64,000 nucleotides of DNA from a virus. A program made the position numbers and the translations under genes. This document shows, in pieces, positions 17,590-58,949 of this stretch. The stretch covers positions 62,001 to 126,000 of the IMG/VR virus record IMGVR_UViG_3300020473_001965. The stretch is one strand, 5' to 3'. Each line of letters starts with the position of its first letter. The first letter of the stretch is position 1. The notes beneath the pieces are model-generated. The model was given only the letters and a program-made list of their open reading frames with translations. It was not told the origin of the DNA and made no database searches.

Positions 17590-17832
17590 CTACAATCTAA
17601 TGTTTCTTAGTCTTCTGTCCCTGACTATTGCTGCAGGTAGTTCTCCTAGCTCGAGATCTCTCTTTACTTGTGTCAGCTGTTCGGGGAAGAGTCGACCCTT
17701 GTCGACTTCGAACTCTACTTGACGCAGGAGTTCTGCCTTTTGTCGCTCAATCTCAGCGTTTTCACTAAGAGCATTAAGCACTTGCAGCTCTTCTCTTACT
17801 ATTTGACGAAGCTTTTTCTCTGTTAGTTTCAC
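17590..17832 (-). CDS. Leader-family small helical protein, GTG start
   Basis: I take GTG 17832, which has GAGG six bases upstream, overlaps the preceding TAG and puts the leader (KLTEKKLRQIVREEL) at the N-terminus as in its paralogues. An LSE site follows at about residue 23. The remainder is a long charged helix pair (EIERQKAELLRQVEFEVDKG, then LTQVKRDLELGEL). Function unknown. Confidence 0.8.
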   Translation of the reverse strand: MKLTEKKLRQIVREELQVLNALSENAEIERQKAELLRQVEFEVDKGRLFPEQLTQVKRDLELGELPAAIVRDRRLRNIRL

Positions 17833-18083
17833 TATCTTCCTCGCTGCCAAGAATAGGCGAACCCATGCTTGCTAAAAAATGCGTTGAGCACCTCATCCAA
17901 CTCGGTTTCAAAGCCTACCGGAAGCAGACCGTGCTTGAGATCAGATTCAATGTTTACACTCAAGGTGTGCATTCCGCCGGCTGAGGGCCACATTCTAGCA
18001 GATGCTGTGCTGTTCGATTCGTTTAAAATCTTTTTCTGCTCTTCTTGGATGATTCTTCTGAGTTGTGACTTTTTGATTTTCAT
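17832..18083 (-). CDS. Leader-family small protein
   Basis: An 83-residue protein with MKIKKSQLRRIIQEEQKKI followed at once by LNE. The rest has a beta segment (GMHTLSVNIESDLKHG) and a helix (FETELDEVLNAFFSKHG). Very similar leaders at 18290 and 18845 suggest recent duplication. Function unknown. Confidence 0.8.
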   Translation of the reverse strand: MKIKKSQLRRIIQEEQKKILNESNSTASARMWPSAGGMHTLSVNIESDLKHGLLPVGFETELDEVLNAFFSKHGFAYSWQRGR

Positions 18084-34616: not shown

Positions 34617-34692
34617 TGGAGCGGGTGATGGGACTCGAACCCACAACGTACAGCTTGGAAGGCTGTCACTCTACCAGTTGAGTTACACCCGC
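34617..34692 (-). tRNA. tRNA-Gly (anticodon TCC)
   Basis: Cloverleaf on the minus strand: acceptor GCGGGTG pairs with CACCCGC, anticodon stem ACAGC/GCTGT around CTTCCAA, T stem GTGGG/CCCAT with a terminal mismatch or G-T pair and loop TTCGAGT, discriminator U and encoded CCA. Anticodon TCC reads GGA/GGG. Confidence 0.95.
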
Positions 34693-34701
34693 AATTCGTC
34701 G

Positions 34702-35130
34702 CTATTCTTGAATATCTACAAGCTCTATTTCAAAATTTAAAGTTTTCCCTGCAAGCGGGTGATTAAAGTCGATAACAGCTTCTTCGTCTGTGAAAGAGCT
34801 GATTACTCCTCGGAACGTTCCCGTCTCATTTTGTGCCTGAACTACTCCGCCTACAGCAAATTCCATCTCTTCAGGAAACTGGGTCCTGGGAACAGTTGCA
34901 ACTGCTTGTTCGTCAATGGGTCCGTAAGCATTGTCAGGTTCGATTGTAACATTTTTCACTTCTCCTACTTGCATTCCTAAAAGCGCAGAATCAAATCCTC
35001 CAATAACTCTACCCTCGCCTACCTGAAATTCTAGAGGCATTTCTCTATCATAAGAGTTATCAAACTCCATTCCATCATCGAGTGTTCCTCGATAGTGAAC
35101 GCTAACTGTATTTCCGTTTTCTACTTTCAT
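34702..35130 (-). CDS. SlyD-like FKBP peptidyl-prolyl isomerase
   Basis: A 142-residue protein starting at ATG 35130 with AAGGA upstream. VSVHYRGTLDDGMEFDNSY, MPLEFQVGEGRVIGGFDSAL and IEPDNAYGPIDEQAV are FKBP/SlyD landmarks, with an insert-in-flap domain (MEFAVGGVVQAQNETG) and the closing NHPLAGKTLNFEIELVDI. The metal-binding His-rich tail of E. coli SlyD is absent. A folding helper acting on proline bonds. Confidence 0.93.
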   Translation of the reverse strand: MKVENGNTVSVHYRGTLDDGMEFDNSYDREMPLEFQVGEGRVIGGFDSALLGMQVGEVKNVTIEPDNAYGPIDEQAVATVPRTQFPEEMEFAVGGVVQAQNETGTFRGVISSFTDEEAVIDFNHPLAGKTLNFEIELVDIQE

Positions 35131-35172
35131 TTTTCCTTCTTTCTTTTGTGCATTTTGCACGGTTATTAGTGC

Positions 35173-35415
35173 TTAACGCACAACTTTTAGTTTTTCTACC
35201 CAGACTGGCAAAGATAACTCGGACCGACCAGATCCGTAAATTGCACTCTCTGGTACTTTGAATGGTACTAGTTCGTCTGAACCGCCTACCCAGTGCAATC
35301 TATCTGCAACTACATCGAACAAGAGTGTTTCTTGATCTTCAGTGGGATAATAGAACCCGTTGTAGCCGCGCTTGCTCATTCGAACTGTGTCACCTTTTTT
35401 GATTGTAATTTTCAT
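35173..35415 (-). CDS. SH3/KOW-like 'GDLV' family protein
   Basis: An 80-residue member with TIKKGDTVRMSKRGYNGFYY, LLFDVVADRLHWVGG and a closing PVWVEKLKVV. It lies between the deaminase and FKBP genes. The start MKITIKK resembles the head leader by chance only; the helix core is missing. Function unknown. Confidence 0.75.
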   Translation of the reverse strand: MKITIKKGDTVRMSKRGYNGFYYPTEDQETLLFDVVADRLHWVGGSDELVPFKVPESAIYGSGRSELSLPVWVEKLKVVR

Positions 35416-35425
35416 TTGATGCTCC

Positions 35426-35794
35426 TCAGCAACCTTTTAAAACGTCTATTTCTTCCCAGGCACCCTGCCAGTTTGTGTACCTGACTTTAGCTATCCCAGC
35501 CTTTTTCATCTCTTGCATGCAGAGATAACATGGGCGTGCCATTGTCCATCGATGATCATGCTTTGTAAATCTAATAACTTCAATTTCATCTCCCGGTTTT
35601 GCAAATCTCAATACATTCATTTCTGCGTGCATGTGCGAAGCCCATGTACCATCCTCATATTGTCGCTTAAACCTTGGGTGAGTCTTATCAGTATTTTCAC
35701 CTATCTTCACGACCTTGCCTTTTCTTCGTAAGATAGCAGCCAAATGATAGGTTCTACCATTGCTGATCGCTTTTTCTTTAGCTCGATAGTACAC
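35426..35794 (-). CDS. Cytidine-deaminase-fold zinc enzyme
   Basis: A 122-residue protein with HMHAEMNVLRFA (zinc His and catalytic Glu) and RPCYLCMQEMKKAG (PCxxC zinc cysteines), the CDA-fold signature. It differs from the dCMP deaminase at 62822 in length and flanks, so substrate is open: nucleotide, tRNA or another base. It ends next to tRNA-Ser. Confidence 0.88.
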   Translation of the reverse strand: MYYRAKEKAISNGRTYHLAAILRRKGKVVKIGENTDKTHPRFKRQYEDGTWASHMHAEMNVLRFAKPGDEIEVIRFTKHDHRWTMARPCYLCMQEMKKAGIAKVRYTNWQGAWEEIDVLKGC

Positions 35795-35815
35795 TTGGCA
35801 TGATGCCCTCCTTAG

Positions 35816-35903
35816 TGGCGGAAGCGGTGAGATTCGAACTCACGATACGTTTCCGTATGCCGGTTTTCAAGACCGGTGCCTTAAGCCGCTCGGCCACGCT
35901 TCC
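35816..35903 (-). tRNA. tRNA-Ser (anticodon TGA)
   Basis: Minus-strand class II tRNA: acceptor GGAAGCG/CGCTTCC, anticodon stem CCGGT/ACCGG around CTTGAAA, long variable arm (ATACGGAAACGTAT), T stem GTGAG/CTCAC with loop TTCGAAT, discriminator G and encoded CCA. Reads UCA and probably other UCN codons. Confidence 0.95.
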
Positions 35904-35905
35904 AG

Positions 35906-36505
35906 TTAAACTTTCCATAATCCTGACTGATTTCCAATACCAGTCCATCTTGGCCGGACGGTTCGTGAATAGAGATCCAAGTATGGACCTTTGCTTCTTT
36001 CCTCAACAAAAGAGTAAAATTCTTCAGGCTTTCGAGAATGCTGTCGCCTCTGAGCGAAAATATAATCCTTAGAACCGCACAGACCCTTTCCGTTGGGAAC
36101 TGACTCTTTCTCATTTGTCCCTGAATACCTTGTTCTTTTTCCCATTCCCTTTCGATATCTTACAGCAAAAATACACATCTCAGTGTATCTCATTCCGTAC
36201 GGGGTAGGGCTTCCCACATTTGACTTTACCCATGGGATCAAGCTGATTGGTTTGAAACCTAGCGCATCACAAACTTCAAGCGCAGGTAAAATCCCTTGAT
36301 CTTTCCCAGCTGTAAATGAATTAACTGTCCACATGTACATATGGGCTTCAGGAGCGACAGGATGCTTCTTAAACCACTCTGATATCGTGCAAATTATCTC
36401 GCCCTTAGACTGAACATTGTAATGAGTCGAAGGTTGTAAAGTTGCATGACCCACACCCCCTGTGGTCTTTCTCCAAGGTGGGTCTATTACGATAGTTTTA
36501 TACAT
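35906..36505 (-). CDS. MT-A70-type N6-adenine DNA methyltransferase
   Basis: A 199-residue protein beginning TIVIDPPWRKT, with the DPPW catalytic tetrad typical of the MT-A70 group. LIPWVKSNVGSPTPYGMRYT and CIFAVRYRKGM follow the family pattern, then SRKPEEFYSFVEERSKGPYL. It should methylate adenine, most likely in DNA, protecting phage DNA or altering its regulation. It sits between tRNA-Ser and tRNA-Asn. Confidence 0.9.
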   Translation of the reverse strand: MYKTIVIDPPWRKTTGGVGHATLQPSTHYNVQSKGEIICTISEWFKKHPVAPEAHMYMWTVNSFTAGKDQGILPALEVCDALGFKPISLIPWVKSNVGSPTPYGMRYTEMCIFAVRYRKGMGKRTRYSGTNEKESVPNGKGLCGSKDYIFAQRRQHSRKPEEFYSFVEERSKGPYLDLYSRTVRPRWTGIGNQSGLWKV

Positions 36506-36520
36506 AGCTTATCCATAAAA

Positions 36521-36596
36521 TGGCTCCCCGAGCAGGACTTGAACCTACGACCCGCTGATTAACAGTCAGCTGCTCTACCAACTGAGCTATCGGGGA
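36521..36596 (-). tRNA. tRNA-Asn (anticodon GTT)
   Basis: Minus-strand cloverleaf: acceptor TCCCCGA/TCGGGGA, D arm GCTC...GAGC, anticodon stem GCTGA/TCAGC around CTGTTAA, T stem GTAGG/CCTGC with loop TTCAAGT, discriminator G and encoded CCA. Reads AAC/AAU. Confidence 0.96.
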
Positions 36597-38984: not shown

Positions 38985-39746
38985 TTATTTTCCCTCCATG
39001 AGTTTCATATATTTTTCTTTAGAGATTGGATAATCAGAATGATTTGTGCTGTCCTCAGTAATTCCGAATCTAAGCCTGATTATCTTTTCTTCCCTAGAAG
39101 TCAAGCATCGCAAACCTTTGCGAACAGCTCCGGTAATTTTTTCCTTGTCCAGAATATCATCTAAGTGTGTAGCATCACTATCAGGGACGATATCTTCAAG
39201 GGTCCCGGATTCATCTTTCCCAATCGGCCGGCTAAGTGACGTTGTATTGGTCGGCGCTTGCAAAGCATCTTCAATCAACGAAGTTGTCACGCCTAAGATA
39301 TCAGCAAGTTCTTCTTTAGTTGGGGCTGAACCGAATTCATCCTCATACTCTTCAGAGACATTTTTGATCTTAGATAGTAGACCTCGAGCGTGAGATGGAA
39401 TTCTAATAGTCGACGTGTTTGCTGTAACATGTCGGCGAACTGACTGACGAATCCACCAAGTTGCATACGTAGAAAAACGAAAGCCTCGACGCCAATCGAA
39501 TTTCTCAACAGCTTTCATCAAGCCAATGTTAGATTCTTGAATCAGATCAGAAAGATCACATCCAAAATGCTGATATTTCTTAGCGATGCTCACAGCTAGT
39601 CGCAAGTTTGACTCGATCAACTTCCTTCTAGCTTCGGGGTCACCTGCCTCGATTCTCTTTGAGAGTTCTACTTCTTCATCTTTGGTAAGAAGTTTAGACT
39701 TCCCAGCTTCTTTAAAGTAAACGTTAAGTAAGTTAGACACAAACAC
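38985..39746 (-). CDS. Sigma-70 family RNA polymerase sigma factor, truncated in region 4
   Basis: A 253-residue sigma factor. Region 1.2 is [20 protein letters not shown], region 2 covers [35 protein letters not shown] and [20 protein letters not shown], region 3 is [12 protein letters not shown]. Region 4.1 is present ([18 protein letters not shown]), but the protein stops about 20 residues later without the 4.2 helix-turn-helix that reads the -35 box. It likely directs middle or late transcription from promoters with only a -10-like element, perhaps with the adjacent HTH protein. Confidence 0.92.
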
Positions 39747-40969: not shown

Positions 40970-42744
<1,775 letters not shown>

Positions 42745-43893: not shown

Positions 43894-44658
43894 CTAAACT
43901 CCTGCAAGAATGAACTTATATTTCTTATCTGCGTCTTGCCAGTATTCAGTTTTGTCGATAATTGTCTGCATTTTTTTAGAATGTCTTGACATCCTAGTCT
44001 CAAGACCTTTGGTGAGACGCTCTCTCTTCTTCACAGCGTTTTCACTGCAGCCCCAAATCTTTTTGTTTGTGCTAGCGACGTCCTGATATGCTGCATAGGC
44101 TGCATTAAAAAATCTTGCGGCTTGCTTGTTAATTTCGATCTCATTCATTACCTGAACGTCACCATGTAGTACTACAGATTTTTTCATTCCAACGTGTTTC
44201 TTCATCTTAACTTTTCCTCGGGCTCCTGGCGCCTCATCAGAAAAGTCATTTATTGTCAGACCCTCGAAAAACAAAACATTAAAAGATTGAAAATCGGGTG
44301 CAGCAAGAACATACAAATAATCAAGCGATCCTTTTTTCTTTAAAGTACTGTAATCTGTCTGGAAGCTATAACCTCCCTTTGGGCGCCGAGTGGTTATTTT
44401 ACACTCAAGCTCTTTGCCTAGTGAAGGTATGACAATGTCAGGCTGGCCGGTTGCTCCGTCTGAAATCGCATCTTTAAAATAACTTGCTATCTCGTCTGCA
44501 AAAAACTTCTCTTGAGCAGCTGACATGATTATGTTTCTTCGTCCGGTGTTTTGAACAAAATCGAGTCCGTACTCCTCATGAAGAGACAACTGCTTATCGT
44601 GAAAGCTTTTCATTTTAGCCAACGCTTTTACGACCATTTCTTTAGTAATATAACTCAT
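43894..44658 (-). CDS. PD-(D/E)XK restriction-like endonuclease
   Basis: A 254-residue protein with QPDIVIPSLGKELECKITTR, a clear D-x(n)-E-x-K active site, preceded by a helix with a conserved-looking Glu (AAQEKFFADEIASYF). The C-terminal half is helical and basic (KKRERLTKGLETRMSRHSKK). It could cut DNA in recombination, host-DNA breakdown or exclusion. It has its own sigma70-like promoter. Confidence 0.85.
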   Translation of the reverse strand: MSYITKEMVVKALAKMKSFHDKQLSLHEEYGLDFVQNTGRRNIIMSAAQEKFFADEIASYFKDAISDGATGQPDIVIPSLGKELECKITTRRPKGGYSFQTDYSTLKKKGSLDYLYVLAAPDFQSFNVLFFEGLTINDFSDEAPGARGKVKMKKHVGMKKSVVLHGDVQVMNEIEINKQAARFFNAAYAAYQDVASTNKKIWGCSENAVKKRERLTKGLETRMSRHSKKMQTIIDKTEYWQDADKKYKFILAGV

Positions 44659-44717: not shown

Positions 44718-45101
44718 TTATTCTTCTGTGCTGTCTAGAGTATTTGTTGTGGTGTCATCTTCAGACACGGCAACTCTTACGTTGCTTGTAATCTTCTGTC
44801 CTTTCATAGCTGCAGTCTTATAAGCTTCCAAGCCCAAAGCAAAACGAACGTTGTCATATTCCGCCCAATTTAGCTTTTCTTTTAAGACAGCCATGCTTGC
44901 ATATTGATGAAGATCTAACTCCGTCACCGGTACTTCTTCGCCGTCCAGACCTGGCTCGAACTCCCCAGTGTCTCTAGACTCAAACATAAAGAGTATCTTT
45001 GGCATCTCTTGATCATCGGGAACATGAATAAAGGGTATCTTTGAAGTAATGCCGTCTTCGGCTTCTTCATACATAATTTCTGGTATCCAATTGGTAGACA
45101 T
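44718..45101 (-). CDS. Unknown structural-type protein
   Basis: A 127-residue protein starting at ATG 45101 with AGAGG upstream. IPFIHVPDDQEMPKILFMFE, EEVPVTELDLHQYASMAVLK and ITSNVRVAVSEDDTTTN suggest a beta-rich capsid- or tail-associated protein with an acidic end. No family recognised. Confidence 0.78.
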   Translation of the reverse strand: MSTNWIPEIMYEEAEDGITSKIPFIHVPDDQEMPKILFMFESRDTGEFEPGLDGEEVPVTELDLHQYASMAVLKEKLNWAEYDNVRFALGLEAYKTAAMKGQKITSNVRVAVSEDDTTTNTLDSTEE

Positions 45102-45169
45102 CTGCACCTCTTAAAACTTATAAATCATACATCGAGGTTTTTAGAAGTTAATATATTATAGCGTTTAAT

Positions 45170-46924
45170 TTAAGTCGCTAGATCTAGGTCGACATCTTCT
45201 TCTTCAGCTTGCTCCTCTTCAGCTTCCTCTTTCTTTTTCTCCATTATTTCGACCATTTCATTTTTTGCTTTTTCTCTCTCGGACTCTAAAACATCAAGGC
45301 CAGATTCTAATCCCTTGACTACTGTTTCATATCCGTCTTCAAATAAAATTGTAACCATCTGTTCCCACATCGGATCTTTGCTCGAATCATAACCTGATTT
45401 TTTTACTAAGCTTTCGTAAGCATCAAAATTGGGCGAAATCATGTCTTTAAAAGACTTTTCATCAAGTGAGTCCACAAAAGATTCTACATAGCTAGGTCTA
45501 AACTGTGCTATTATACGTGACATTATTTCATCATCTTGTTCTTCAATGGCTAGCTCATATGCTTCTTTGATATCATCTTGCTGAGAAAACACTTCAAAGC
45601 CCTTCTTGAACAAGGGTTGTGCAGCATTTAAATCAGACGTCTTTGCAGGCTTCAGCCCCTCAGCCATCTCCTCTCCCAAATAAGCTTGAATATCAGCGAT
45701 TATGGCTTTCAAAGACTTTGCAGCGCCTGATGATTCTTTTTGTGCTACTAGGTTTAGCCATTCTAGGGACGTCAAAATATCTAAAAATAATTCATCATCT
45801 GTCGATGTTATGTTCAATTTTGACCTTAGATCTTCGGGCTCATCGCTGAAATCGCCCATTCCGCCGGCGCCTTTTAAAAATTCTGCAAACGCTTCAATAT
45901 CGTCAAGATCAGCATCAGCTTTTCTATGACCTCGTTCCCAATTCTTCAAGGCGTCTTGCGACTGGTCCCAAAGTTTAGTTAGAGTCCCTGTCAGTCTCCC
46001 AGGGAAAACATCATTGATTCCGTCTTTTGCAGGGACGTATGCATCTTCTCTAGATAGAAGCAAAGCATGCATTGCAACAATTCTTGGTAGATATTTTCTC
46101 TCAATTGCTTTACTTAAATCTTGTTGATTCTTTTTCTGATTCTCTCCCGGATCTTCTTCGTAAATCGTTTTTAAGAGATCTTCTGGATCTATTCTTTCAT
46201 TGTCAGAAAGAATTACTGAAATTGTTAGCTTGGACAGCCAGTCATCGTCAGCGAGATCACCTGCTACGGTCGCATCTGTTATTGCATTTTTAACTGTGGG
46301 ATTTCCTCTCGCGCGTTTGACAGCATTACTTACCCATCGAGGTATTTCCTTGCCGTTGTAGTCATCTACAGCTGCTTCTGTCAAAAGGGCGCGCTCCCAC
46401 TTCTCAATTATTAGAGCTGCGTCTCTGGTGTGAGATTCTCCTATAATTGATTTGTGAAGAATATCGTAAAAGTTTTTATTGTCTTCAGAGAATTGGTTGC
46501 TTTCCGCAGAATACTTGTCAAGTAGAGCCATGTATTCTCTTCGCTTATGCTCTCTCTCGAACACCTCGAGGCACCAGAATGAAGCTGGTGCGCCGACCAA
46601 TATTTCTGGCACACCTATCTTTTTAGCACGAATAATAGAAGACTTCTCTCTATCTAAGTTGGCGAAGTGTTTCTCCAGGTCGCCTCGGGTGTAGTCAGCC
46701 ACTTCTTTCCAAAAGTTTTTCCATCCGCCTTTTATCGCGCCTCCGACTGCTGATGCTATTGCTTGCCAGTTAGGTGCAAACCCCTTGACAATTCCTATAA
46801 GATCAGAAAGACCTGCTATGTCCTCATTGACAGCATCATCGTGATACATTGATCTCACATCCTGCGACTCTTTAATAGAGTTTCTGGCCCGAACAAGAGA
46901 ATTTTTGAAATCTGGCTTTTTCAT
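45170..46924 (-). CDS. Large helical virion-type protein
   Basis: A ~584-residue, mostly helical protein. It starts at ATG 46924 (a GTG lies 12 bases earlier), has a hydrophobic patch (IASAVGGAIKGGWKNFW), and ends in an acidic coiled-coil tail (KKKEEAEEEQAEEEDVD). A leader-like stretch SLVRARNSIKESQDVRS is near the N-terminus. A late-promoter-type motif precedes it. Probably an internal head or injection protein; no family recognised. Confidence 0.82.
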   Translation of the reverse strand: MKKPDFKNSLVRARNSIKESQDVRSMYHDDAVNEDIAGLSDLIGIVKGFAPNWQAIASAVGGAIKGGWKNFWKEVADYTRGDLEKHFANLDREKSSIIRAKKIGVPEILVGAPASFWCLEVFEREHKRREYMALLDKYSAESNQFSEDNKNFYDILHKSIIGESHTRDAALIIEKWERALLTEAAVDDYNGKEIPRWVSNAVKRARGNPTVKNAITDATVAGDLADDDWLSKLTISVILSDNERIDPEDLLKTIYEEDPGENQKKNQQDLSKAIERKYLPRIVAMHALLLSREDAYVPAKDGINDVFPGRLTGTLTKLWDQSQDALKNWERGHRKADADLDDIEAFAEFLKGAGGMGDFSDEPEDLRSKLNITSTDDELFLDILTSLEWLNLVAQKESSGAAKSLKAIIADIQAYLGEEMAEGLKPAKTSDLNAAQPLFKKGFEVFSQQDDIKEAYELAIEEQDDEIMSRIIAQFRPSYVESFVDSLDEKSFKDMISPNFDAYESLVKKSGYDSSKDPMWEQMVTILFEDGYETVVKGLESGLDVLESEREKAKNEMVEIMEKKKEEAEEEQAEEEDVDLDLAT

Positions 46925-46942
46925 ATTTCTTTGCACTCAACA

Positions 46943-46983: not shown

Positions 46984-47012
46984 TTGTACATTAAACAATT
47001 TTTTTGTATAAT
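46984..47012 (+). promoter_or_regulatory. Sigma70-like promoter of the plus-strand module
   Basis: TTGTAC (46984-46989), a 17-base T-rich spacer, and consensus TATAAT (47007-47012), followed by AGAGG and ATG 47031. Ideal spacing and position indicate host-polymerase transcription of the four-gene plus-strand module. Confidence 0.7.
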
Positions 47013-47030
47013 TCATCAAAAGAGGTTTGT

Positions 47031-47780
47031 ATGAAAATCGGTCTTGTTCCTATGTCAGCAAAACCCTATCATATCGGTCATCATAAGTTAATCGATATTG
47101 CTGCTAAAGAAAATGATGTTACTTTTGTATTCGTTTCTTTTTCTAGCAGGGGTGTCAAAAAGATAAAGGACCCAACCGATAAGAGGACAATCAAGCAAGG
47201 CGCAAGAAAAATTGAAGTGCCTAAAGACGGAGAGTTACCTATTTTTGGGTCTGATATGCGGTATATCTGGCTTAATATCCTCAAAGAAGAGCTTGAGTTC
47301 TCAGGACGTGTTGAACTCGTCTTTCCAAAAGAAGGCAAAAGTTTGATTCCTGTACTGTCAGTCCACGAAGCATGTGCAAGCCTAATTGAGTCGATCGACA
47401 ATAATGCATGGTTTGAAATCGATGGTCAAAAATTTGAAAGCAGTTCATCGACTATTCAAATCTACTCAGATAAGCAAGATATTGCTACGAACTACGATAA
47501 TCAAACAATGACAAAGTACTACAAGGATGATTGGTTTAGACACATCACTCTTGTGGGTGTCGATCGAAATGACACTGTCAATATCAGCGGTACAAAAATG
47601 AGGGCTCTGTTAAGCGAGAGAAAAAACATTGATGAATTCAAATCTCTGCTGCCCCCAATTAGAAATAATTCAAAAAATATTGTTGCTGAAATACTGTTTG
47701 ACAGTGCTGGATCAGGTACAACTTTTAATTCTAGGTGTGTGCGTGCAATCCAAACCCCTTTGCCGATTTACGCTGGCTGA
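47031..47780 (+). CDS. HIGH-motif nucleotidyltransferase (cytidylyltransferase-like)
   Basis: A 249-residue protein; ATG 47031 follows AGAGG. GLVPMSAKPYHIGHHKLIDI contains the HIGH motif of nucleotidylyltransferases, and VNISGTKMRALLSE gives the second, I-S-x-T-x-x-R-type motif. NMN/FMN adenylyltransferases, PPAT and cytidylyltransferases share these. The C-terminus (TTFNSRCVRAIQTPLPIYAG) is unusual. Being first in the surface module, it could activate a cofactor or sugar-alcohol phosphate; the substrate is unknown. Confidence 0.88.
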   Translation: MKIGLVPMSAKPYHIGHHKLIDIAAKENDVTFVFVSFSSRGVKKIKDPTDKRTIKQGARKIEVPKDGELPIFGSDMRYIWLNILKEELEFSGRVELVFPKEGKSLIPVLSVHEACASLIESIDNNAWFEIDGQKFESSSSTIQIYSDKQDIATNYDNQTMTKYYKDDWFRHITLVGVDRNDTVNISGTKMRALLSERKNIDEFKSLLPPIRNNSKNIVAEILFDSAGSGTTFNSRCVRAIQTPLPIYAG

Positions 47781-47828
47781 CAAAAAATAGTTCTAAAGTC
47801 GCATACTTATAAAAAGAGGTATGCGCTC

Positions 47829-48554
47829 TTGAGACAGATTAAAATCATAGTGGTAACACTATTAGCCGGTGTGGCGATATACACTGGCTACGCCTTCTTT
47901 AATCATGGACATCAAGATGAATCTCAAGAAAAACAACAACAAAGCTATGTAACTGAAGAAGCTGTTGTTGATTTAGAGTTTATTGATCATCAGGCGTCTT
48001 ACGCAGAAATAGCGTCTAGAAAGTCATCGGTACAAGTACACAACCCGGATTTTCGAGGTTTTGGCTCTGGTACATATTTTGTACAAAAGGGCCGCCATTT
48101 TATACTGACAGCTGCACACGTCGTAGACGATAAAGAGCACATGATGATCTCAGGCAGAGATGAGATTGTGCCCGGGCGCGTGGTTTATACAAATCCGGCT
48201 ACTGATATTGCCGTCATAGAAGTCGATAAAATGAATACACGTGATCCTGTGCGTCTTCGTGTCAATGGTAACCCACACGTGGGTGATGCGGTTGCATACA
48301 CTGGCTTTCCGAACGGTACAGATCTATTAACCATCACGGGAAGAATTAGCGGCTATAGGGGCAGCTGGGTTGTTATTCAAAGTTATACATGGATGGGTGC
48401 ATCAGGAAGCGGCGTTTTTGACTCCAGAGGAAGGCTTGTTGGCGTTGTCTCAATGGTAGAAATTGGCCATTACAGAGCGCCCCAAGTTATTGAAGATGTT
48501 GGTTATGTTGCTAAAATATCTGAAGCTGATGTGCGAGGAATTAGAGGGTTGTGA
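47829..48554 (+). CDS. Membrane-anchored trypsin-like serine protease
   Basis: A 241-residue protein starting at TTG 47829, eight bases after AGAGGT. An N-terminal anchor (IIVVTLLAGVAIYTGYAFF) is followed by a Gln/Glu-rich linker and an S1-type fold with the full triad: His in ILTAAHVVDD, Asp in NPATDIAVIEV, Ser in GASGSGVFDSRG. The protease domain would face the periplasm or outside. No PDZ domain. It may process the two vWA lipoproteins encoded next. Confidence 0.9.
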   Translation: MRQIKIIVVTLLAGVAIYTGYAFFNHGHQDESQEKQQQSYVTEEAVVDLEFIDHQASYAEIASRKSSVQVHNPDFRGFGSGTYFVQKGRHFILTAAHVVDDKEHMMISGRDEIVPGRVVYTNPATDIAVIEVDKMNTRDPVRLRVNGNPHVGDAVAYTGFPNGTDLLTITGRISGYRGSWVVIQSYTWMGASGSGVFDSRGRLVGVVSMVEIGHYRAPQVIEDVGYVAKISEADVRGIRGL

Positions 48555-48582
48555 GCGTTGACATAAAATAGGAGGGTCTAAA

Positions 48583-49467
48583 ATGTCTTCGGGTGTTAAA
48601 TTGCTGTTGTTGTTAGCCAGTCTTGGAATTGTTGGCTGCACATCTGACTACGCAGTTTCAGAAACAAAAGAAGTAAGAGTGGTCGTTGACTCTTACGTTC
48701 AAGCAGATCAGCTTGAAGAACTTGACGTTCTTGTTGTTTTAGACACATCTGGATCAATGCACGACAATTATGAAGATGTCGCTGACGGTATGGAAATACT
48801 AAGAACAGATATTGAGTCTTTGACTCTTGATTATCAGTTCGGTTACATTACCATGGATCCCACTCGATTGTCTTACGTGGGACCGTATGACTCTTCTTCT
48901 ACAGCAATTGACATGCTTATGGCTCCAAGCCTTCTTCCTTCTACAATATTAGAGGAGGGGTTCGGAGCCACATACACTTTTTTGGAGTCAGAGGAAGGAT
49001 TAGCCTTCAGGCGACCCGAAGCGGATTTTCTTTTGTTCTTGATTTCTGATGAAGACGAGCAGAGTGCGATATCCTCTGATCTATTCTATGACTGGTTGCA
49101 TGATGAGTTTAAAGACGTAAATCATGATGTTGTGTCTATAGTAAACCCTGATGATGAAAACGCATCTTGGGCACATGAAATAGGTTATAAGTACATTGAC
49201 CTCGCAAACCTTTATGGTAAAGATGTTCTTGACATAAAAGCAGAAGACTGGTCAATATGGCTATCAGACTCTTCATATTTAACACAGCTGCAAGACACTA
49301 TTGCACTAACTGAGACCTATCCCATTGTTGAATCAATTGTCGTCTATGTTGATCAAGTAGCTATCTATAATTGGAACTACATTGAAGAAACGAATGTCAT
49401 CAAGCTAGGTGACGTTCCCGATTACGGGTCTGTAGTAGAGGTGGGGTACAATGTATATGTGGACTAG
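48583..49467 (+). CDS. vWA-domain lipoprotein
   Basis: A 294-residue protein with GGAGG before the ATG. Lipoprotein signal LLLLLASLGIVGC, then SDYAVS. The von Willebrand A domain starts at DVLVVLDTSGSMHDN (MIDAS D-x-S-G-S) and includes FLISDEDEQS. The last ~60 residues (IVVYVDQVAIYNWNYIE, then VIKLGDVPDYGSVVEVGY) match the C-terminal domain of the next gene. A surface-anchored metal-dependent adhesin is likely. Confidence 0.9.
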   Translation: MSSGVKLLLLLASLGIVGCTSDYAVSETKEVRVVVDSYVQADQLEELDVLVVLDTSGSMHDNYEDVADGMEILRTDIESLTLDYQFGYITMDPTRLSYVGPYDSSSTAIDMLMAPSLLPSTILEEGFGATYTFLESEEGLAFRRPEADFLLFLISDEDEQSAISSDLFYDWLHDEFKDVNHDVVSIVNPDDENASWAHEIGYKYIDLANLYGKDVLDIKAEDWSIWLSDSSYLTQLQDTIALTETYPIVESIVVYVDQVAIYNWNYIEETNVIKLGDVPDYGSVVEVGYNVYVD

Positions 49468-51073
49468 ATTACTGCTTTCTTCTTTTGTTGTGCTATCGAT
49501 AGGTTGCAGCAGTGATTATGAGATAAGCAAATATGTTGAGCCGCCAGAGCCGGGCGTCACTGCACCTGAAATAGAAGTTGACCCTACACATCATAGTTAT
49601 GGTGCACTAAGCGCTGGCAGTGAGACCCAAGACATTGTCATCAATATTGAAAACATCGGCAATGACGATCTAGACGTTTCAAACATTTACTTGCATAACG
49701 GTGATTCCAACTTCACATTATCTACAATGCCGATTGGTATCGTAGAATCGCTAGGATCTGTAGAACTTATTGTCACGTATGCGCCTGGAACATACGAAAC
49801 TAATCACGAAACTATTAGTATTATTTCTAACGATGAAGACGAACCGGTTGTAAATGTAACACTAGATGGTTCCGGCGACGCACCTGTCATCACTATCACA
49901 CCAGACTACCACGATTTTGGAGATGTCTATATAGGCTGTGACGATACACTTCCAATAGAGGTAGGAAATATTGGAAATTCAAATCTTATAATTGATGATA
50001 TTGAGTTTTTTGCTAGTCTCCCTGTTGATTTTTCTATGCAAGACTATGAACCAGACTGGGGAGTTCTTCCTATTACTATTTCGCCTGGTGACACTATCAA
50101 TCTTAACGTAGACTATATGCCGCTAGATGTTTTAGACGATGCTGCTTACCTCGAAATCTCGTCAAATGATCCGGCGACGCCTACTGCTCATGCTGATCAA
50201 GACGGTCTCGGAGAAGTGGAAGCTTGGATTACTGATTCTTTTAATCAAGACGGAACCGTTGATGTTGATATACTATTTGTCATTGACAACTCTGGTTCAA
50301 TGGGGTCTAACCAGACTAACATTAAAAACAACTTTGACGCCTTTATGAATGCTTTTAACGCAGCTGGTGTGTCCTATCAAATGGCACTTATCACTACGGA
50401 TAGTGCTGATTTTGTAGGTGATGTTATTACAAACGCAACAGTTGATCCCGTCACTGAATTCAACAATCAGATTGACTCTATTGGTACACGCGGAAGTGCT
50501 TATGAGAAAGGCCTGTGGTTTGCATACGAGTCAACAACAACAGGTGACGCATCTTCAAGCAGCCCCACTGGATTTTTTAGATCAGACGCAAGACTAGTAG
50601 TTGTATACGTTTCTGATGAGCCTGACTTTTCACACCAGACTTACGGAAGCGGTGGGTCTACAACCATGGTTCCCGCTGATTATTCAGCATCTCTTTTGTC
50701 TCTTAAGAGCTCTTCTGATCTAGTCACAGCGCATGCAATCGCAGGCGATTACCCGTCTGGCTGCACTTCTAATGGAGGCGCTCAGTTTGGTGACGGATAT
50801 TATGATGTTGTAACTGATCTTGGTGGAACGTTTATGTCAATATGTGCTGCTGACTGGAGTGTAACAATGGATACACTCGCAAGAGAATCACTGGCTCAAC
50901 TAGGATTTGCACTTTCAGACACACCGATTGAAGACACTATAACAGTTACAGTCGACGGTGTTCTGTCATCAGACTGGTCATACGAAGCCTCATCAAATAC
51001 TGTTATTTTCACAACAGCACCTGCCGACGGCAGCACCATTGATATTAATTACGGTGTATGGGGTTGCGACTAA
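49451..51073 (+). CDS. Lipoprotein with ASH-like repeats and vWA domain
   Basis: A 540-residue protein. Signal LLSSFVVLSIGC, then SSDYEIS. Two ASH/choice-of-anchor-D-type immunoglobulin-like repeats follow (IEVDPTHHSYGALSAGSE; ITPDYHDFGDVYIGCDD). The vWA domain begins DILFVIDNSGSMGSN and has VVYVSDEPDFSH. The C-terminal domain (TITVTVDGVLSSDWSYEASS) is shared with the upstream paralogue. It overlaps that gene by 17 bases. Probably a surface adhesin or decoy; the domain set is common in Myxococcota. Confidence 0.9.
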   Translation: MYMWTRLLLSSFVVLSIGCSSDYEISKYVEPPEPGVTAPEIEVDPTHHSYGALSAGSETQDIVINIENIGNDDLDVSNIYLHNGDSNFTLSTMPIGIVESLGSVELIVTYAPGTYETNHETISIISNDEDEPVVNVTLDGSGDAPVITITPDYHDFGDVYIGCDDTLPIEVGNIGNSNLIIDDIEFFASLPVDFSMQDYEPDWGVLPITISPGDTINLNVDYMPLDVLDDAAYLEISSNDPATPTAHADQDGLGEVEAWITDSFNQDGTVDVDILFVIDNSGSMGSNQTNIKNNFDAFMNAFNAAGVSYQMALITTDSADFVGDVITNATVDPVTEFNNQIDSIGTRGSAYEKGLWFAYESTTTGDASSSSPTGFFRSDARLVVVYVSDEPDFSHQTYGSGGSTTMVPADYSASLLSLKSSSDLVTAHAIAGDYPSGCTSNGGAQFGDGYYDVVTDLGGTFMSICAADWSVTMDTLARESLAQLGFALSDTPIEDTITVTVDGVLSSDWSYEASSNTVIFTTAPADGSTIDINYGVWGCD

Positions 51074-52347
51074 CCCACGTAAAGAGGCACTGGTAGCGGC
51101 TTTTCTTTTCCTCTAGACTTAGAAAAAGCTGGATTTACCATACCTAAAATCTGATTTACTGGTGCAAACGCTCCCGTAATCTTATAAGACATTCGTTTAT
51201 TTGGTAACGTAAAAACCACACCCTCGACAGTTGATGTTATAGTAAACACATCATTAGATAACTTCTCATAATTCATTGCCAAGGTATTAAGAGTTTTCTC
51301 TGACTCATTTTCTTTTCTTACTTTTTCTACAGCCGTCGCGACCTTCGTCCTCAATGCCTTAACCTGATCTTCTCCGTTGTCGACAAAAATGGAATGAGAG
51401 TTTTCAAGCAATCCTATGCCAAACTTATTGATAATCATCTCTAGCGGCATGATAATTTTTCGGACAATTGAAGATCTAGACCTAGCGATATCAGACAAAG
51501 CACTTCTGACTGCAGGATTTAGTGTTTTAACGATTGAAGGTGTGGGCCTTGTTCGAGGCACATCAAGCATTCTATTTAGAAACTCATTTTCAATTTCAGA
51601 TGGCAACGTGTACTGCTTTAGATAATCTAAAGTAATCTGGTTTTCTAAGTACACGCTGATTGTATCTTCATCTTCTAAGTGATTCTTTACCATAAAATCT
51701 TTTAGAAGAAACAATGCTTCGTTCATTTTTTCTTTGTTTGCTGTCTTTGCCAAACTTATAGGGGTAGGCCCCTTAATTGTCCAAAACTTATCAGTAAAGG
51801 GTGATTTGACAACAGCACCAGACATTGCCTTTACAACTTTGTCAAACGTCTCAGGACATGCAGTCCCTAGTGAAGTGCCTTCTTGATATCTTGTAACACC
51901 GTGCATAACAAGATAGTTTCTATTGTATGTGATAACATTTGGATTATCAGTAGACATCACCTCAAGATTGACAAATGGAATGCCCCCTTGATCTTTATCA
52001 AAGATCTGGAATCGGTTGTAGTACACCAAATCAGACACAGATAGATTGAAAGCTGAGAGTGCGTCAGTAAATGCTTCTTTTACAAGCGTCTTTGTAGCGT
52101 ATCGCTTTTCAAGTTGTTTTCTATCAACACCTGACTTTTTGATGTCAGTCTTGTTTCGTGCCGCGTAAGATGCATGCCCTCTTGGGTCATGAGTTAACGA
52201 AAGATTTTGTCCGTCGACTTTCTCGTATAGGGTTATTTTATTCTGAATAATTGATTCTAGAACTGATCTTAGTTCTCCAAAAGTTAGGTTATAATCTTCA
52301 TAAAGATGATTGAGGTGACCACTATCGTTTCCACCAAGTCCACCCAT
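51070..52347 (-). CDS. DUF6267-type ligase/nucleotidyltransferase-like phage protein
   Basis: A 425-residue protein of a family common in T4-like marine phages. It starts GGLGGNDSGHLNHLYEDYNL; LYEKVDGQNLSLTHD has the K-x-D-G of covalent nucleotidyltransferases (ligases, capping enzymes), AARNKT follows, NLEVMS is like motif III, TSTVEGVVFTLP like motif IV and YKITGAFAPVNQ like motif V. A ligase-like adenylyl transfer is inferred, not shown. It converges with the vWA gene. Confidence 0.85.
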   Translation of the reverse strand: MGGLGGNDSGHLNHLYEDYNLTFGELRSVLESIIQNKITLYEKVDGQNLSLTHDPRGHASYAARNKTDIKKSGVDRKQLEKRYATKTLVKEAFTDALSAFNLSVSDLVYYNRFQIFDKDQGGIPFVNLEVMSTDNPNVITYNRNYLVMHGVTRYQEGTSLGTACPETFDKVVKAMSGAVVKSPFTDKFWTIKGPTPISLAKTANKEKMNEALFLLKDFMVKNHLEDEDTISVYLENQITLDYLKQYTLPSEIENEFLNRMLDVPRTRPTPSIVKTLNPAVRSALSDIARSRSSIVRKIIMPLEMIINKFGIGLLENSHSIFVDNGEDQVKALRTKVATAVEKVRKENESEKTLNTLAMNYEKLSNDVFTITSTVEGVVFTLPNKRMSYKITGAFAPVNQILGMVNPAFSKSRGKEKPLPVPLYVG

Positions 52348-52656
52348 TTAATCCTCCGATTCTTCAATTAACTCTATTTGACCTGTGCTTAAACCGTACC
52401 TGTGAGCTTTTTTCTTAAGTTCTCGCAGGGACTCCATACATCTTGTAATTCGATCTCTTTCTTTCCTATCTGTTCTTGAAAGTTGCTTTCTAACATTGTT
52501 CAACTCAGACAGCAAAGTATCATATACATTCACATGCGATGAAGAGCCAAAAGAAAGCTCTTCATTTTCAGTTGTTAGAAAAGTCTTGTTCTCATTTAAA
52601 GATAAGAAACTTTCTCTAAGAAAAGTTCTCAATAACTTGTTTTTCTGGTCAGACAT
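52348..52656 (-). CDS. Leader-family coiled-coil protein
   Basis: A 102-residue protein with KLLRTFLRESFLSLNE at the N-terminus, a leader-type helix ending in an LNE site, then a coiled coil (LLSELNNVRKQLSRTDRKE and ITRCMESLRELKKKAH). It lies directly before the DUF6267 gene. Presumably head-associated; function unknown. Confidence 0.78.
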   Translation of the reverse strand: MSDQKNKLLRTFLRESFLSLNENKTFLTTENEELSFGSSSHVNVYDTLLSELNNVRKQLSRTDRKERDRITRCMESLRELKKKAHRYGLSTGQIELIEESED

Positions 52657-57931: not shown

Positions 57932-58549
57932 CTACGCTAGTTTTGATGCACCCGCTCCTACGGCAATTGGTGTTTCAAGATCATCATTCATAGTACCGCT
58001 AGGACGAGTAAGTGTATCAAGTTTTTCATCAACTTCATCGGCGGACGCTTTGTCATATCGATCTAGCATAAATTGTCGAGCTCTATTTTTAATTGTCGTC
58101 TCAACATTAATCAAGTTGTTAAAGTTATTAATTAACCGTGAGATTCTCTCAGCAAAAGCATCAGCGTTAAGGGGCTGCTGAACTTCTTCTCCTGGGTCAT
58201 CAACGGCTACTGAAGAGTTGTCCACAGTTAGGCGCACATCATAGCCTGCTTGCTTTAATTTCTCAATCATGTTTTTAATGTCATCATCGGAGGCTGCGTC
58301 CGGGTCTTCTTCAGGCGTCGGTTCAGCATCTTCAGCTTCTTCGCCTTCTTCTTCTTCAAAGAGGTAACCTAGTGCTGATCTAAGTGTTTTAGATTCATCA
58401 GCTCTTTCCATCGCTGAATCTGCTTCATACTGTAACAATAATGCATCAATCTGACGATCTATCGAATCTTGCTCTTCAGCAGCACCCTCAGAAATCAGTT
58501 TTAGCTCTTCTCTTATAATTCTTCTCAGTATTGCTGCTTCCTTTTTCAT
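57932..58549 (-). CDS. Leader-family acidic head-type protein
   Basis: A 205-residue protein; ATG 58549 places the leader KKEAAILRRIIREELKLISE (ending in an ISE site) at the N-terminus. An acidic linker and helical domain (NDIKNMIEKLKQAGYDVRL-like and NFNNLINVETTIKNRARQFM) follow. Presumed internal head protein. Overlap with the upstream gene's longer frame is not used. Confidence 0.8.
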   Translation of the reverse strand: MKKEAAILRRIIREELKLISEGAAEEQDSIDRQIDALLLQYEADSAMERADESKTLRSALGYLFEEEEGEEAEDAEPTPEEDPDAASDDDIKNMIEKLKQAGYDVRLTVDNSSVAVDDPGEEVQQPLNADAFAERISRLINNFNNLINVETTIKNRARQFMLDRYDKASADEVDEKLDTLTRPSGTMNDDLETPIAVGAGASKLA

Positions 58550-58550
58550 T

Positions 58551-58949
58551 TTAGCTATCCTGTATTCCAGCTCTTTGCTTGCCCAGTTCAGCACCCTTAC
58601 CTAACTTCTTGGCTTTTGAAGTGGTTACATTTTGCTCTACAAATGTAGTTAACATATCATCAAAAAACTGAATTAAGGCCGGGATTTCTGTTGAAGTTAT
58701 GTTCTGTGCGCCTCGAAGTGCCTTCATCATATAGTTTCCTGCTTCTGTTTTATTTGTAGGCATCTTTGCACCTTGCAACTTCGGCTGGTATTCTTTTCCG
58801 GCGGCACCTAGTTCAGCTTGGTCTCCTTCGGGGGCATCTTCTTGACCAGGTTGATTCTCAGATATAACTCTCTTGGACAGCTCATTGAGCTTCTTAATCT
58901 GCAATTGGTTTCTAACAATCTTTCTAAGTTTTGATTCTGTAATTTTCAT
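58551..58949 (-). CDS. Leader-family small helical protein
   Basis: A 132-residue protein with MKITESKLRKIVRNQLQIKK, then LNE and ISE sites close together, an acidic-polar linker and helices (LIQFFDDMLTTFVEQNVTTS). It directly follows the superoxide-dismutase-like gene. Function unknown. Confidence 0.82.
   Translation of the reverse strand: MKITESKLRKIVRNQLQIKKLNELSKRVISENQPGQEDAPEGDQAELGAAGKEYQPKLQGAKMPTNKTEAGNYMMKALRGAQNITSTEIPALIQFFDDMLTTFVEQNVTTSKAKKLGKGAELGKQRAGIQDS

Follow-up and report, generated by a model that had tools for sequence, protein, structure and literature searches.

Integrin-like MIDAS-adhesin lipoproteins and a candidate host-envelope kit in a clade of large marine phages

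Why would a large marine phage carry, on the strand opposite to the neighbouring genes, an anchored protease and two lipoproteins with von Willebrand factor A (vWA) domains? The question is raised by positions 46,984 to 51,073 of a 64,000-nucleotide (nt) stretch of the viral record IMGVR_UViG_3300020473_001965, the whole of which (G000:C1:62001-126000, within a record of 235,672 bp) we call the window. The initial annotation had described four plus-strand genes at this locus, encoding a nucleotidyltransferase, the protease and the two vWA lipoproteins, and had read them as a module that remodels the host surface early in infection. Inspection of the open reading frames bears out the four plus-strand genes, which are flanked by convergent and divergent minus-strand neighbours, and corrects both the start of the first gene and its membership in the set. 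The observation is thus real, and it is larger than first described. On balance we lean towards the view that the protease and the vWA lipoproteins belong to a modular host-envelope kit of a large marine phage clade, which would be made in the infected cell and would alter its surface.

The evidence begins with the vWA proteins themselves. The first, vWA1 (48583..49467, plus strand; 294 amino acids, aa), is a lipoprotein of the type found among adhesins with a metal-ion-dependent adhesion site (MIDAS), with a lipobox cysteine at C19, the MIDAS residues D54-x-S56-x-S58 and D156, and a C-terminal beta domain. The second, vWA2 (49451..51073, plus strand; 540 aa), is a lipoprotein in which two Ig-like HYDIN/ASH domains (residues 41-240, 49571..50170; recognised by PF22544 at 1.5e-15, by PF15780 and in the structure model) precede a MIDAS-bearing vWA domain (50222..50911) and a C-terminal beta domain (50918..51070) that is common to vWA1 and to cellular MIDAS adhesins. 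The vWA2 gene shares its first 17 nt with the vWA1 gene and its last 4 nt with the end of the convergent gene at 51070-52347. That the overlapping pair has a C-terminal domain in common, as originally proposed, is upheld by an hhalign comparison (E 4e-33 over 258 columns), and BLASTP finds the vWA and C-terminal domain common to the two proteins across relatives (E ~1e-13 to 1e-10). Both proteins match a PROSITE-type lipobox pattern, which as a sequence pattern is present in 29/31 phage vWA proteins. Among 23 vWA2-type phage homologues the MIDAS DxSxS and SDE residues are invariant (D279, S281, S283 and D389 in vWA2), as are the cysteines C163 and C465, with C438 and C539 nearly so. The vWA2 structure model, with a predicted local distance difference test score (pLDDT) of 88, matches ciliary ASH/HYDIN domains, the integrin beta headpiece appearing lower in the list.

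A scan of bacterial genomes that was unrestricted by group placed the cellular relatives mostly in Myxococcota, Bdellovibrionota and unclassified 'Deltaproteobacteria'. The vWA2 profile matches 94 of 290 Bdellovibrionota genomes over the vWA and C-terminal domains and 78 of 195 Myxococcota genomes, in the best of which the match extends over the Ig domains too. When compared by profile with the MIDAS lipoproteins of Bdellovibrionota over the vWA and C-terminal domains, vWA1 gives E 4e-25 and vWA2 E 6e-44, and in a tree the phage vWA2 proteins are sister to Myxococcota proteins (joint-clade support 97/93), with vWA1 forming a deep branch of its own. In the Bdellovibrionota locus L215, behind the related gene come genes for an outer-membrane barrel, a GltC-like TPR protein and TolQ/TolR, which make up a gliding-type cluster, and the gene order of L214 is similar. 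Because of this gene kinship, which is the sole basis of the proposal, the host probably lies in or near the Myxococcota or Bdellovibrionota.

Characterized members of these families give the kinship its interest. Bd0875 of Bdellovibrio is a lipobox-bearing MIDAS adhesin of the predator-prey junction, and prey invasion needs its MIDAS residues (PMC11003981). Like Bd0875 and Bd1483 (family NF052240), the phage proteins have a lipobox and a DxSxS MIDAS with a downstream acidic residue, and their vWA and C-terminal beta domains match Bdellovibrionota relatives by profile. They differ in being phage-encoded, vWA2 has two extra Ig domains, and the family cut-off of 700 bits is far above what they reach (42.6 bits for vWA2 and no match for vWA1); we have therefore filed them as relatives, not members, of that equivalog. 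CglB and CglD of Myxococcus are likewise vWA-domain surface proteins of gliding bacteria, and CglB acts in gliding (PMC13104615). The likeness to vWA2, measured with the CglD profile, lies below the cut-off (NF033765, 41.3 bits against 400, E 4.6e-11); glt/agl genes were not recognised beside the phage genes. Myxococcota choice-of-anchor-D plus vWA proteins have the same Ig-vWA-C-terminal order and form the sister clade of phage vWA2, but their best cellular copies run to ~830-1,360 aa with many copies per genome, and one scanned copy has more Ig domains than vWA2. The adhesion or predation reading offered by the initial annotation gains support in that the vWA proteins are relatives of the MIDAS adhesins of both phyla. 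The comparisons bear out what class of genes these are, the signals for export and the kinship with adhesins, and what we propose below on host, timing and function should be read as conditional.

The protease (47829..48554, plus strand) is a trypsin/DegS-like serine protease of 241 aa (Trypsin_2, E 5.9e-21) whose H-D-S triad is intact (TAAHV, TDIAV, GASGSG), as it is in 9/9 of its relatives. Its closest PDB relative is DegS, and it resembles the DegS/HtrA enzymes in having an N-terminal hydrophobic anchor and a trypsin-like domain with the triad; unlike them it ends soon after the protease domain, and a PDZ domain was not found.

Genes of this kind recur well beyond the window. Searches at E<=1e-10 detected the vWA family in 22 of the 51 records examined from related marine phages, in two arrangements. 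In type A, vWA1 and/or vWA2 stand with a trypsin-like protease and often with the thioredoxin-like protein TlpA; in type B, vWA2 is followed by a membrane-anchored matrixin (PF00413, motif HExxHxxGxxH), usually with overlapping genes and sometimes with TlpA next, and in 10 of the 11 type B phages the vWA2-matrixin pair adjoins a fibre-like gene. Across 49 related records, matrixin is present in 16/22 vWA-positive and 0/27 vWA-negative ones, and TlpA in 10/22 and 1/27, respectively. The trypsin-like protease, for which 38 records were searched, accompanies vWA1 in 6 of 7 cases and occurs in 4 of 31 records without vWA1. The record from which the window was taken itself encodes two further lipoproteins outside the window, a matrixin at ~55.3-56.0 kb and a TlpA at ~13.9-14.5 kb, the latter close to a gene that has PHROG hits of the tail-fibre type. 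Such separation of the partners is seen in some other records, G010 among them, and in these genomes adjacency cannot explain the co-occurrence. At the other extreme, in the 19.6-kb viral contig L273 a single gene run encodes a protease, a lipoprotein of the vWA1 type, a matrixin and TlpA. The notion of a surface-facing, envelope-remodelling module accords well with all of these features: the lipoboxes, the anchored protease, the conserved MIDAS, and the recurrence with predicted exported proteases and thioredoxins.

Matrixin alone was considered as a marker of the system and rejected. When viral loci were scanned by matrixin, a vWA gene lay within 4 kb in 15 of 80, a set that includes records already counted; most viral matrixins thus lack such a neighbour. 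Three marine phages in which no vWA lipoprotein was recognised (L263, L270 and L294) encode a TlpA lipoprotein together with a small exported matrixin, with a fibre-like gene between the two in 2/3. In tblastn searches of named phages, vWA1, vWA2, the nucleotidyltransferase and the neighbouring gene at 44718-45107 all remained without a match; the protease weakly matched four phage-collection records, and a plasmid search yielded one partial Ig-domain match.

Between the window and L004, amino-acid identity is 75% for vWA1 and 81% for vWA2, against 27-61% for the flanking genes measured. Recent transfer was considered as the reason, but fourfold-degenerate sites in the pair are 35-37% identical, close to the ~31% expected by chance; we therefore reject it and ascribe the high identity to constraint on an old pair. 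In the flanking genes L004 is close to L005 and the window is distant, whereas the vWA1 of the window groups with L005 and its vWA2 with L004. This conflict between the vWA trees and the flanks points to exchange of the vWA genes between phage lineages.

Comparison of the same genomic slot across relatives settles the position of the first gene. The slot is bounded on the left by p588 (45170..46936, minus strand), a gene that flanks it at the same place in L004, L005, L057, L060 and L070, and on the right by a 425-aa ligase-like protein with a KVDG motif (51070..52347, minus strand), convergent with vWA2. A survey using the neighbouring gene at 44718-45107 returned 55 loci, including the two contigs that belong to L004 and L005. 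Both of these are colinear with the window and have protease, vWA1, vWA2 and TlpA at the same place, without the nucleotidyltransferase. This protein (47031..47780, plus strand; 249 aa) is Citrate_ly_lig / CTP_transf_like / NMNAT-like with an HxGH motif, and at eight loci it is found in the slot with surface genes absent. Four of these (L070, L104, L107 and L108) have it on the opposite strand, the other four (L093, L094, L095 and L100) on the same strand. The slot of L057/L058 holds the nucleotidyltransferase with TlpA and a vWA protein, and that of L060 the protease and vWA2. Since the nucleotidyltransferase occupies so many slots on its own, we regard it as a slot gene and the surface genes as cargo that varies between phages; its inclusion in the surface module, as initially annotated, is accordingly withdrawn. 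Its start is the ATG at 47031, preceded by a good Shine-Dalgarno sequence, AAGAGG; the listed TTG start at 47004 was rejected, as it falls within the putative -10 region. In L057, a PLD-like protein (PF13091; 5145-5981) adjoins the set of vWA, TlpA and nucleotidyltransferase genes.

That -10 region belongs to the element from which early expression had been predicted, a near-consensus sigma70 promoter. The candidate, TGTACA-N16-TATAAT (46985..47012, plus strand), does score 10/12 against the consensus, but in a local scan promoter-like sites are no commoner than in shuffled sequence (16 vs 16.8). Better support comes from its -10 block, TGTATAAT (47005-47012), which recurs as an upstream motif across the clade: in related phages, TGTATAAT and GTATAATA rank with the 8-mers of strongest strand bias upstream of genes (16 vs 4 and 24 vs 3, respectively). 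The clade-wide motif supports a cassette promoter more than the local consensus score does. Because the minus-strand neighbour at 43894-44658 carries TGTATAAT too, the motif is uninformative on early or late timing, and the promoter as a sign of early expression was set aside. Nor is the idea of lysogenic conversion supported: a tyrosine integrase (PF00589) was not found in the 235,672-bp record G000, which is possibly incomplete and in which other recombinase types were not searched.

How might such a kit work? At its core would be one or two MIDAS (integrin-like) adhesin lipoproteins, which the infected cell would make, export and anchor in the outer membrane. The exported protease, plus the matrixin and TlpA-like thioredoxin encoded elsewhere in the genome, would act in the compartment of the lipoproteins, either maturing them through cleavage and disulfides or removing competitors among the surface proteins of the host. 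With its bound metal, the vWA face would then engage an envelope ligand, most likely a component of the host adhesion or gliding surface apparatus, the usual seat of host MIDAS adhesins, or else the phage receptor. The outcome would be a changed cell surface, on which most likely further phage adsorption is blocked, or adhesion or gliding altered. Location at the outer-membrane surface, action in the infected cell instead of the virion, the nature of the ligand and the final outcome are thus what we infer from the genes described above.

Several points weigh against this explanation. The kit is known from its genes, so that host, location and expression are reached by inference, and homology to host adhesins does not show the role of the phage copies. 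A lipobox by itself is no proof of surface exposure, the NCBIfam MIDAS-adhesin and CglD matches are far below their cut-offs, and the vWA1 model (pLDDT 60) is too poor for fold comparison. The identity of the fibre-like genes is weak, with few weak PHROG hits, and no fibre gene adjoins the cassette in the window. Finally, the co-occurrence counts and their Fisher tests ignore relatedness, and many of the records are fragments in which adjacent genes are sampled together.

Two of the alternatives are sharper forms of the host-envelope kit. One is strict receptor-blocking superinfection exclusion, in which the lipoproteins would bind or hide the outer-membrane receptor of the phage itself and the proteases would trim it, barring later phages from adsorption. 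The logic is that of T5 Llp and T1 Cor: small exported lipoproteins are known to serve for exclusion, and the llp gene adjoins that of the receptor-binding protein pb5 (PMC9586334). The phage vWA proteins are likewise predicted exported lipoproteins, the vWA2-matrixin pair of type B phages neighbours fibre-like genes, and in the window genome TlpA lies near tail-fibre PHROG matches. The likeness is at gene level, however, for Llp and Cor are far smaller and have no vWA domains, and Llp acts from the periplasm (PMC9586334), whereas the phage proteins, at 294 and 540 aa, are adhesin-like and conserve a metal site; the cassette of the window has no fibre gene next to it, and the receptor is putative. 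We consider this a serious possibility, if not the one we would choose. We are more doubtful of a second form, in which the phage copies would serve as extra or dominant-negative focal-adhesion or prey-contact adhesins that alter gliding, attachment or predation. It draws on the kinship to Bd0875-type adhesins and the CglD profile, on the gliding-type neighbours of the Bdellovibrionota genes, and on the roles of Bd0875 and CglB in invasion and gliding (PMC11003981; PMC13104615), yet vWA lipoproteins are numerous in Myxococcota and not all are motility-related, and the host is putative. The bolder formulation, that the phage takes over the host's focal-adhesion or prey-contact apparatus with a dedicated integrin-like adhesion kit that is akin to the one of gliding or predatory bacteria and comes with its own serine protease, metalloprotease and thioredoxin, strikes us as equally tentative.

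Roles in lysis or in the virion are less likely than superinfection exclusion or changed adhesion, gliding or predation. An inner-membrane-anchored protease and an outer-membrane lipoprotein could have a spanin-like topology and open the envelope late; the genes for the lipoprotein and the transmembrane-anchored matrixin overlap in many relatives, and the window has both an anchored protease and lipoproteins. We nonetheless think a lysis module unlikely: MIDAS and Ig domains serve in binding and not in fusion, a thioredoxin partner would be out of place, and among the genes inspected neither a lysozyme nor a holin gene was recognised next to the set. It seems more improbable still that the proteins are an adhesive decoration or tail protease of the particle. 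Ig and vWA domains presumably occur in some viral structural proteins, viral folds are among the matches listed, and the function of the neighbouring minus-strand genes is unassigned, but the near-universal lipoboxes, the strand opposite to the neighbours in the window and the exported partners all argue against it.

Some features of the surrounding genome deserve mention in their own right. The ligase-like protein at 51070-52347 has matching regions in predicted proteins of ~930-1,490 aa in L059, L063, L064, L066, L067, L068, L072, L079, L083 and L101, and these large counterparts are possibly a fusion or a larger enzyme. A sigma70-family factor and GroEL are encoded at 38985-39746 and 40970-42556 (45-50% identity in relatives), and three minus-strand tRNA genes (Gly-TCC, Ser-TGA, Asn-GTT) lie within 34617-36596. 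Many proteins of the clade have in common a short basic amphipathic tag, N-terminal or sometimes C-terminal, such as MKITRRQLRQIIREAL, MKLLLENWRKYL or LLRTFLRESFL; it is found in the window at 17590-17850, 52348-52656, 57932-58594 and 58551-58949, and in L136, L138, L139, L163, L263 and L270, and it resembles a shared signal for targeting or packaging, of the T4 capsid-targeting kind.

Phage proteins that change the cell surface are best known as short lipoproteins that block a single receptor. Surface-altering phage genes are therefore a known kind, and the vWA family is new to phages within the open-access literature searched, where no description of phage proteins of the vWA/MIDAS-adhesin kind was found. 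In this clade, large integrin-like adhesins are maintained under strong constraint on their amino acids, along with partner proteases and a thioredoxin, and appear to be swapped between lineages. If they do act on the host adhesion apparatus, they would provide a direct handle on the identity of the hosts of these uncultured marine phages, and on the influence of phages on gliding or predatory bacteria.

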